This document shows, piece by piece, positions 9,847 through 10,833 of a stretch of 49,589 nucleotides of DNA. The notes under the pieces are model-generated. The model did not search any database. It worked only from the letters and a program-made list of their open reading frames with translations, and was not told the DNA's origin. Location: assembly GCA_011524995.1 (NCBI GenBank), contig WTJA01000116.1, forward strand, positions 1 through 49,589. Reading direction: 5' to 3'. Source of the DNA: Alphaproteobacteria bacterium (lineage in GTDB: Bacteria; Pseudomonadota; Alphaproteobacteria; Puniceispirillales; Puniceispirillaceae). Made by a program: the position numbers and the translations under genes. Each line of letters opens with the position of its first letter. The stretch's first letter is position 1.

Positions 9847-9876
9847 CCTTTATGCTATGATGGCATAACATAAAGG
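9847..9876. promoter_or_regulatory. 30-base interrupted inverted repeat upstream of ETF-QO
   Basis: Arms CCTTTATG (9847-9854) and CATAAAGG (9869-9876) pair perfectly, then a one-base mismatch, then TATG/CATA around ATGG. It lies 20 bases upstream of the ETF-QO start. The 13-mer tatgatggcataa in its centre is repeated at 9923-9935. It looks like an operator or RNA hairpin for ETF-QO. Confidence 0.55.
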
Positions 9877-9921
9877 GGTACCCTTATATTAAGTTTGGCG
9901 TAAAACGCTTATATTATGTTG

Positions 9922-9935
9922 TTATGATGGCATAA
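9922..9935. promoter_or_regulatory. second copy of the TTATG-ATGG-CATAA palindrome
   Basis: Arms TTATG and CATAA flank ATGG. Thirteen bases (tatgatggcataa) are identical to 9856-9868. This copy lies 28 bases upstream of the UDG start, so one regulator could control both divergent genes. Regulator unknown. Confidence 0.5.
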
Positions 9936-9963
9936 AACCATCTTCATAGTATCAAAATGGCAG

Positions 9964-10833
9964 ATGGAATCCGCGTTGACAATCACAGAACCGACAAAAG
10001 ATGACTTAATCGCTGCACTTTCTTGGCAGGTGGAAGCTGGCGCTGATGAAGCCTTGTGGGATGAGCCGTCATTTGCACATGCGGTGACGATGCGCCTCTC
10101 AGATGTGATAAATCCGGAATCCAAAGACACAGCGCCTATCAAACAGCCTGTCTCTGCTGCGCCAGCGATGCCAGCGCAAGGTGAGGAAAGTGCCCCTCAA
10201 CCTGCCTCTGAGGCGCCCGCACCTGCTACGTCTCTTGCGCAGATCCAAACGCTAGAGGCGCTCAAACAAGCGATGGCTGATTTTGATAAATGCGATTTAA
10301 AGCGCACCGCTAGCCATTTGGTATTTTCTGATGGTAATCCCGCGGCCAAAATCATGGTGATTGGCGAAGCGCCTGGGCGCGATGAAGATCGCGTAGGACT
10401 GCCTTTTGTTGGCAAGGCGGGTCAAATGCTGGATCACATGTTGGCAAGCATCGGCCTGTCTCGTGATGATGTTTATATCACCAATATTCTGCCCTGGCGG
10501 CCCCCTGGTAACCGGACACCAACAAGCGAAGAAATTGCGATGATGCGCCCCTTTGTGGCACGTCATATTCAGCTGATTTCCCCAGATGTGATTTTTGCGG
10601 TTGGTGGCACCTCAGCCAAGTCTCTTTTGCAAGTATCAGACGGGATTATGAAGCTGCGCGGTAAGCGGTTTGACCTGTCCTTGCCATCCGATAATGATGG
10701 GCCAGAGGCGCGTTATCCCCTTTTGCCGTCTTTGCATCCCGCTTATTTATTACGCGCCCCTCATCATAAGGCTTTGGCATTTAAAGATCTTTTGGCCTTG
10801 CGCCAGTTGGCACGTACTACGCGCGCAAGCTAG
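9964..10833 (+). CDS. family-4-like uracil-DNA glycosylase, iron-sulfur ligands missing
   Basis: Predicted to remove uracil from DNA. The C-terminal 185 residues carry the family-4 signature: GEAPGRDEDRVGLPFVG (134-150), NILPWRPPGNRTP (174-186) and SLHPAYLLRAP with the catalytic-loop HP at 258-259. The first 100 residues are a low-complexity Ala/Pro/Glu linker. Family-4 enzymes normally bind a [4Fe-4S] cluster through four cysteines; this protein has a single Cys (C110, in FDKCDLK). The usual downstream Cys position reads MMRPF here. The fold may therefore be stabilised without a cluster. It heads the plus-strand series udg-slt-moaB-rnhB. Confidence 0.88.
   Translation: MESALTITEPTKDDLIAALSWQVEAGADEALWDEPSFAHAVTMRLSDVINPESKDTAPIKQPVSAAPAMPAQGEESAPQPASEAPAPATSLAQIQTLEALKQAMADFDKCDLKRTASHLVFSDGNPAAKIMVIGEAPGRDEDRVGLPFVGKAGQMLDHMLASIGLSRDDVYITNILPWRPPGNRTPTSEEIAMMRPFVARHIQLISPDVIFAVGGTSAKSLLQVSDGIMKLRGKRFDLSLPSDNDGPEARYPLLPSLHPAYLLRAPHHKALAFKDLLALRQLARTTRAS

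Follow-up and report, generated by a model that had tools for sequence, protein, structure and literature searches.

A cluster-free family-4-type uracil-DNA glycosylase of Alphaproteobacteria as a candidate psi (HolD-like) protein

The window, as we call the whole stretch of 49,589 nucleotides that was analysed, encodes a family-4-type uracil-DNA glycosylase (UDG) that has lost three of the four cysteines expected to hold a [4Fe-4S] cluster. This loss is neither an oddity of the protein nor an error. The best explanation, which we hold with slightly more belief than doubt, is that of a cluster-free family-4 UDG that shares a lineage with psi (HolD) of the DNA polymerase III clamp loader and does psi's job in Alphaproteobacteria. 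The parts of this explanation differ in strength. A common lineage of psi and the family-4 UDGs appears well supported by sequence comparison and gene neighbourhood, the window protein is likely an active cluster-free enzyme that probably still excises or binds uracil, to judge from its residues, and that it acts as psi is close to an even call. According to the parts available of a review (PMC3290774), chi is found in alpha-, beta- and gammaproteobacteria and psi only in gammaproteobacteria, and the review does not decide whether psi elsewhere has changed too far to be detected or chi binds tau directly.

Results

A family-4 enzyme without its cluster cysteines

The protein (Table 1) scores 123.9 bits against the Pfam UDG profile (PF03167; cut-off 24.3), its sole Pfam match at E <= 1, and 193.1 bits against NCBIfam TIGR00758 (UDG_fam4; cut-off 125.3), in agreement with a reading of the sequence alone that had called it family-4-like. 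The ORF translation also places the motifs where this sequence-only reading had them, at residues 134-150 (GEAPGRDEDRVGLPFVG), 174-186 (NILPWRPPGNRTP) and 258-259 (HP). Motif A is present as G134-EAPG-138 and motif B as H258-PAYLLR; in the available portion of PMC10359453 the family-4 motifs are given as GE(A/G)PG for A and as an HPA type, stated as HPAAVL, for B. The closest solved relative is the UDGa of T. thermophilus (1ui0; phmmer E 1.9e-34), and the match to solved enzymes begins at residues 95-97, close to the first residues of the solved chains, such that about 95 residues precede it. The gene lies between ORFs that we identified by reading as ETF-QO and SLT.

Table 1. Features of the glycosylase gene, in window positions. 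Row counts refer to the two sets of relatives described in the text.
Feature	Position	Strand	Remarks
Clusterless family-4-type uracil-DNA glycosylase, candidate psi (HolD-like)	9964..10833	+	289 aa
N-terminal helix and motif, residues 12-30 (L.W..E.GADEAL)	9997..10053	+	G26 in 85/85 rows
Ala/Pro-rich variable linker, residues 31-95	10054..10248	+	Block pLDDT 49-64 (residues 31-90); poorly conserved
UDG-fold core, residues 96-289	10249..10830	+	Block pLDDT 89-98; VIA Z 28.7 to 1ui0
F107, first cluster-Cys column	10282..10284	+	F 71, L 11, Y 3 among 85
C110, second cluster-Cys column, sole Cys	10291..10293	+	Cys in 79/85
Motif A and the loop after it, residues 134-150, with E135, D142, F148	10363..10413	+	
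N174-P186 NILPWRPPGNRTP, with N174 and W178 (third cluster-Cys column)	10483..10521	+	W178 in 85/85 and 52/53
M194, fourth cluster-Cys column	10543..10545	+	Cys in 52/85 and 39/53 rows
Motif B, H258-P259	10735..10740	+	H258 in 85/85
C-terminal K269...F273.D275	10768..10788	+	K...W.D in most relatives; resembles psi 'K..LWQQ'

The cluster cysteines of 1ui0, which we take to be C14, C17, C85 and C101, fall on F107, C110, W178 and approximately M194 of the window protein in a local alignment with a one-residue gap near the fourth. Three of the four cysteine columns of family 4 are thus occupied by Phe, Trp and Met, and the protein is without the ligands of a [4Fe-4S] cluster, as had been claimed from the sequence. 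A residue count agrees that C110 is the only cysteine, and with no second one anywhere in the protein, the ligands cannot be four other cysteines. A first scan of the genome contigs with the window protein alone found no relative. The genome does encode a second protein of the UDG superfamily (L002, C102:3171-3689), UDGb-like by our own label, with five cysteines, and the loss is therefore gene-specific rather than part of a general lack of such proteins. An organism-wide absence of cluster proteins is unsupported in view of these five cysteines, the cluster of L002 being itself putative.

The fold appears to be maintained. AlphaFold with a 53-row alignment gave a mean pLDDT of 85.9, with blocks from residue 91 onward at 89-98, vs 36.6 from the single sequence, and the model superimposes on 1ui0 over 184 residues (VIA-align Z 28.7, rmsd 1.5). 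The predicted model suggests that the fold holds without the cluster, in line with one of two outcomes offered by the sequence-only reading, namely a fold stabilized by other means. Packing of F107 and W178 probably stands in for it. E135, D142, F148, N174 and H258 are all retained, and the first, fourth and last of these are jointly intact in 175 of 210 class rows, which argues for selection on the active site. The intact catalytic residues and the confidently predicted core make it likely that the enzyme is active and cluster-free. The model has a helix at residues 12-24.

Distribution and descent of the cysteine loss

Relatives came from three sets of genomes, namely 41 near ones, of which 39 gave a match, 289 of the class (274 with a match) and 249 of the phylum (182); naming the class as Alphaproteobacteria rests on named relatives, and "outside the class" denotes presumed beta- and gammaproteobacteria. 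The counts in Table 1 come from a first class set of 85 proteins, window protein included and with L003 (a duplicate of L001), L022 (a fragment) and L002 (no match) omitted, and from a second, named set in which the window protein joins 52 relatives. A larger set of 205 alphaproteobacterial rows was obtained from 210 by removal of the UdgX proteins L126, L128 and L135 and the UDGb-like L002 and L133; it includes the window protein and some fragments (L022 and L127 among them), and some species may be doubled via the named collection. Among these 205, the cluster columns hold four cysteines in a single row (L116), three in another (L113), two in 122, one in 49 and none in 32, some of the rows being fragments with gaps.

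In a 65-row tree with midpoint root and some long branches, 28 clusterless and five catalytically degenerate alphaproteobacterial proteins make up one group (94/87), to which the three-cysteine L113 is sister (98/88). UdgX forms the next group out (97/88), followed by L116 and the other family-4 rows (13 rows are labelled four-cysteine, including L098, which has three). UdgX rows and UDGb-like rows each fall in a group of their own (100/100), with the alphaproteobacterial proteins and L113 outside both and among the cysteine-bearing family-4 rows. A tree check of this kind had been proposed together with the sequence-only reading, and it finds the loss common to one alphaproteobacterial group. 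Descent from a family devoid of the cluster from the start, which would have spoken against the sequence-only reading, is not what the tree shows: the group sits among cysteine-bearing family-4 rows, with the three-cysteine L113 as sister and UdgX, for which a cluster is reported, as the next group out. The view of the protein as exceptional among its relatives finds no support. Nearly the whole class shares the loss, and the local step here is the change of Cys to Met at position 194.

Membership of UDGb is ruled out by the tree. UdgX is closer, with a family-4-like fold (window model Z 26.7 to 6ajo), and is characterized by a GEQPG motif, a loop reading KRRIH and a bound 4Fe-4S cluster in the part available of PMC10359453. 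None of these is found in the window protein, which has GEAPG and WRPPGNRTP at the corresponding motifs, and this, together with the separate tree group, rules out membership.

The cluster was probably lost stepwise near the base of Alphaproteobacteria, with Cys to Met at 194 as a later, local event. The order of losses that we infer begins with an aromatic residue at the third ligand, continues with loss of the first cysteine and ends with loss of the fourth in some orders, and aromatic packing would have replaced the cluster. L113 (genome G088), a member of the class with three cluster cysteines and Trp in the third ligand column (CCWC), is a likely intermediate. L098 (G524), a protein from outside the class and otherwise a typical family-4 UDG, has Ser at the third ligand (KSRPPGNR), and loss of a single ligand therefore occurs outside the class too.

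Catalytically degenerate relatives

E, N or H is missing from 33 of the 205 alphaproteobacterial rows, including order-mates from among L089-L093 (one of the 33, L127, is a fragment without the active-site region). All 33 keep a C-terminal K/R...W/F/Y, with Trp in 29, and the N-terminal Gly of the G26 column is kept in 21 and falls in a gap in the other 12. A protein retained after loss of its active site must do something else. A renewed search of 16 alphaproteobacterial genomes without a match, using the UDG-only profile A1 at E <= 1, gave matches in 11 and none in five; four of the 11 resemble degenerate family-4 proteins (L306, L308-L310) and the best match of the remaining seven is UDGb-like. 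One genome, G130, holds both the four-cysteine L116 and a degenerate clusterless protein, L134, whose neighbour on the other strand is a rimI-like gene.

Degenerate forms are also present outside the class. L195-L197 and L218 (family f176) and L198 (f193) are catalytically degenerate family-4 proteins adjoining rimI, and the first four also carry psi-like N-termini. These five are candidates for an unrecognized psi in their families. In the tree, L195-L197 and L218 are nested with the rimI-linked UDGs L106 and L107 (96/83) and L098 and L103 (95/89), and degeneration of a UDG in the rimI-linked slot has therefore happened outside the class.

Proteins bridging psi and the family-4 glycosylases

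No Pfam psi profile matches the window protein at E <= 1, and the link to psi, which the sequence-only reading did not raise, runs through other proteins. Two of these, L158 and L201 from the same genus, exceed the cut-off of the Pfam psi profile (PF03603; 26.4 and 25.3 bits vs 22.2), and both genes are matched by profile A1 (E 9.0e-9 and 7.9e-9, respectively). For L201 there is in addition a TIGR00758 match of E 0.0013, under the cut-off of that profile; it comes from a genome (G508) that is not psi-positive in the genome search. L202 is the same protein as L158.

Iterative searches connect the two families in one direction. Starting from 14 canonical psi sequences with an inclusion threshold of 1e-2, the search took in L201 and L202, then degenerate alphaproteobacterial proteins and then UDG ORFs. 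By round 6 it matched 236 UDG ORFs (E <= 10), and neither reversed decoys nor other ORFs came under the threshold. (L148 is one of the 20 psi ORFs, but the psi alignments and this 14-row seed do not include it.) At an inclusion of 1e-3 the same search goes no further than L201 and L202, and six rounds from a UDG seed reached L158 (1e-14) and never canonical psi. Neither a rimI control nor five column-shuffled psi alignments recruited any UDG. A reversed-psi control took in reversed ORFs only (up to 134), the database containing reversed copies of psi and UDG. Whole-profile comparison by hhalign of psi with the UDG sets was mostly weak (probabilities 20.2, 33.8, 4.4, 26.7, 24.6 and 85.8); the highest value is for psi vs the degenerate alphaproteobacterial proteins, and reversed controls gave 0.1-0.3. 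In the structural comparison of the window model, psi (solved in 1em8_B and 3sxu_B) is not among the best 50 of 850 chains (Z >= 2), a result that excludes nothing.

It is by its N-terminus that psi binds the clamp loader, according to the portions available of PMC3197488 and PMC3290774. Some relatives from outside the class start with peptides of the type RQRAMLDEMGVRLW (L106), near the RRDWQLQQLGITQW of psi (L142). When an HMM of 19 psi N-termini was searched against 5,490 ORFs, scanning whole ORFs and with psi loci excluded from the ranking, the top match was L202, which is the same protein as the training row L158; the next seven were all UDG ORFs (L201, L197, L218, L196, L195, L097 and L106), followed by a non-UDG ORF. 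Two of these, L097 and L106, have four cysteines and intact motifs. Comparison by hhalign of the psi N-termini with those of 13 UDGs from outside the class, picked and cropped by eye in a manner that favours the alignment, gave a probability of 96.6 (E 6.1e-10) and a score of 33.1, with a maximum of 11.8 and none as high in 60 column shuffles. The N-terminus of the window protein and its class is not significantly similar to the psi peptide (R...L..MGI..W type; hhalign 11.1, 2 of 60 shuffles as high) or to the other UDG N-termini (9.8, 6 of 60).

The f177 genomes G344, G375, G379, G439, G454, G496 and G542 gave no match to profile A1 at E <= 10. Weak matches of this profile elsewhere were not counted: L204-L213, L215-L217 and L219 resemble other UDG-like families by eye, L214 is a helicase-like ORF and L199 has a UDGb-like look.

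Gene neighbourhood

A rimI-like ORF is found in 17 of the 20 psi loci. In the 16 that were measured, with spans taken from stop to stop as throughout for rimI adjacency, it is adjacent and on the same strand in all and follows psi in 15. The same gene adjoins the UDG on the same strand in five of 12 loci from outside the class (L098, L102, L103, L106 and L107), as well as the degenerate UDGs L195-198 and L218 and the bridging proteins L158/L202 and L201. It lies ahead of its partner in these loci, apart from L102, where the order is that of holD-rimI; the pairing is common to psi and the outside-class UDGs, and the gene order is not. All four rimI products tested exceed the TIGR01575 cut-off. 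No rimI was found at L097, L099-L101, L104, L105 or L108, or at the UdgX loci L190-L194. In the alphaproteobacterial proteins it neighbours none of 80 named loci and, among 203, L134 alone. The window gene, flanked by ETF-QO and SLT, follows the pattern of its class, in which one or the other of these neighbours the UDG gene in 65 of the 80 loci.

Distribution of chi, psi and the glycosylase

Across the 249 phylum genomes, chi was found in 233, PF03603 psi in 20 and a match to the window protein in 182. None of the 20 psi-positive genomes has such a match, where 14.6 would be expected, the exclusivity covering the UDG type of the window protein and not all uracil glycosylases. The pattern is strong, yet it may reflect few events or a single historical one. 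Neither psi nor the UDG was matched in 47 genomes, 42 of which have chi, and profile A1 later matched five of the 47 below 1e-7. Within the class, chi is present in 252 of 289 genomes, and its co-occurrence with the UDG is uninformative, both being near-ubiquitous. The genome of the window has chi (L139) and no PF03603 match at E <= 0.001. Its chi retains the W-x6-F pair of the chi surface, a motif that is strict in 28 of 31 chi loci and apparent on reading in the other three.

Discussion

The window protein shares GEAPG..ED, N174, HPAYLLR and the overall fold with the family-4 UDGa enzymes (1ui0; S. tokodaii 4zbx; T. maritima 1vk2), and differs from these in lacking three of four cluster cysteines and in having about 95 extra N-terminal residues. 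Its likeness to psi/HolD (PF03603; E. coli 3sxu_B and 8giy_F; P. aeruginosa PA4679) is of another kind and runs via the bridging proteins, through the N-terminal peptide and rimI neighbourhood of the family-4 proteins from outside the class and through the C-terminal K...W motif. A long and flexible N-terminus is described for P. aeruginosa psi in the part available of PMC3197488. The window protein differs from psi in its complete UDG core, where the catalytic residues are intact, and in having no rimI neighbour. The alphaproteobacterium Bradyrhizobium diazoefficiens has a further UDG-superfamily protein, BdiUng (5gn2), which is distant from the window model (rank 41, with 16% identity and a Foldseek TM of 0.36 normalized by query length). 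This protein is presumably also cluster-free, with the motif GQDPA rather than GEAPG.

On our preferred reading, the window protein represents the alphaproteobacterial, cluster-free form of a family-4 UDG lineage that also gave rise to HolD/psi, canonical psi being a shrunken and catalytically dead member of the family. In Alphaproteobacteria, which have chi and no recognized psi, proteins of the window type would then most likely perform psi's role. The N-terminal helix (residues 12-30 with its motif) is proposed as a tether that would bind DnaX (tau/gamma) in the clamp loader, and the core, with the C-terminal K269...F273.D275 as a proposed chi-side element, would bind chi, which in turn binds SSB. 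Binding of both chi and DnaX by the window protein is thus predicted, and a uracil-recognizing enzyme would ride on the lagging-strand machinery. The most explicit form of this proposal takes psi to be a degenerate family-4 UDG and the undegenerate, cluster-free glycosylase of Alphaproteobacteria to be a bifunctional psi that couples lagging-strand DNA coated with SSB to uracil recognition; we regard it as evenly balanced between right and wrong.

The same protein may instead be an active, cluster-free family-4 glycosylase of general base-excision repair with no role at the clamp loader, in which case the N-terminal helix would be a tail for binding DNA or some other partner and psi would have arisen from a UDG only outside the class. 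We consider this a possible reading, though a somewhat doubtful one. It accounts for the intact active-site residues, for the retention of the UDG in 18 of the 20 chi-negative alphaproteobacterial genomes listed (of 37), for an N-terminus without significant likeness to that of psi and for the absence of rimI linkage in the class save at L134. It has difficulty with the 33 degenerate rows, which are hard to explain as repair enzymes when every one keeps the K/R...aromatic motif and 21 the N-terminal Gly, and with the presence of chi without PF03603 psi in the genome of the window, chi itself being found class-wide.

The degenerate relatives, together with the absence of UDG motifs from canonical psi, could also be taken to mean that cluster loss destabilized the active site and left a pseudo-enzyme, incapable of uracil excision and serving only as a structural subunit of the replisome. 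For the window protein this is improbable, since E135, D142, F148, N174 and H258 are all kept, the 175 of 210 rows with E, N and H intact point to selection on that site, and the core is modelled with high confidence. That the missing cysteines stem from an assembly or sequencing artefact, or from a pseudogene, might be suspected with a draft genome of 132 contigs; the frame is open over its 289 aa with all motifs, and relatives from many genomes carry the same substitutions, which rules out sequence error as the cause and makes this explanation barely conceivable. We therefore return to the cluster-free glycosylase with a share in psi's lineage, and plausibly in its function, as the preferred account.

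In the literature covered (mostly non-subscription papers, among the matches listed), psi/HolD or HolC was never joined to a uracil-DNA glycosylase, and a clusterless alphaproteobacterial UDG clade was not found. The present analysis puts forward a specific protein as candidate psi in Alphaproteobacteria and in certain lineages beyond the class, and it gives psi a likely evolutionary origin. A direct test is possible, e.g. in Caulobacter. If the proposal is true, the replisome of many bacteria may include a uracil glycosylase, which would be the bacterial counterpart of D4 of vaccinia virus. D4 is a UDG of family 1. It doubles as part of the viral processivity complex in replication, according to the parts available of PMC1936997 and PMC10253040, and is a parallel in function, but viral and from another UDG family. 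Apart from psi, a DNA-repair enzyme whose [4Fe-4S] cluster has been lost across nearly a whole class, and for which partial intermediates exist, should be useful for asking what such clusters are for.

The intergenic region

A palindrome is found within 9847-9936, between the ETF-QO and UDG genes, with arms at 9847-9859 and 9864-9876 that are 92% complementary. A near-copy of its core is located at 9920-9935 (16 nt, 94%), and the two elements are possibly an operator for the divergent genes.
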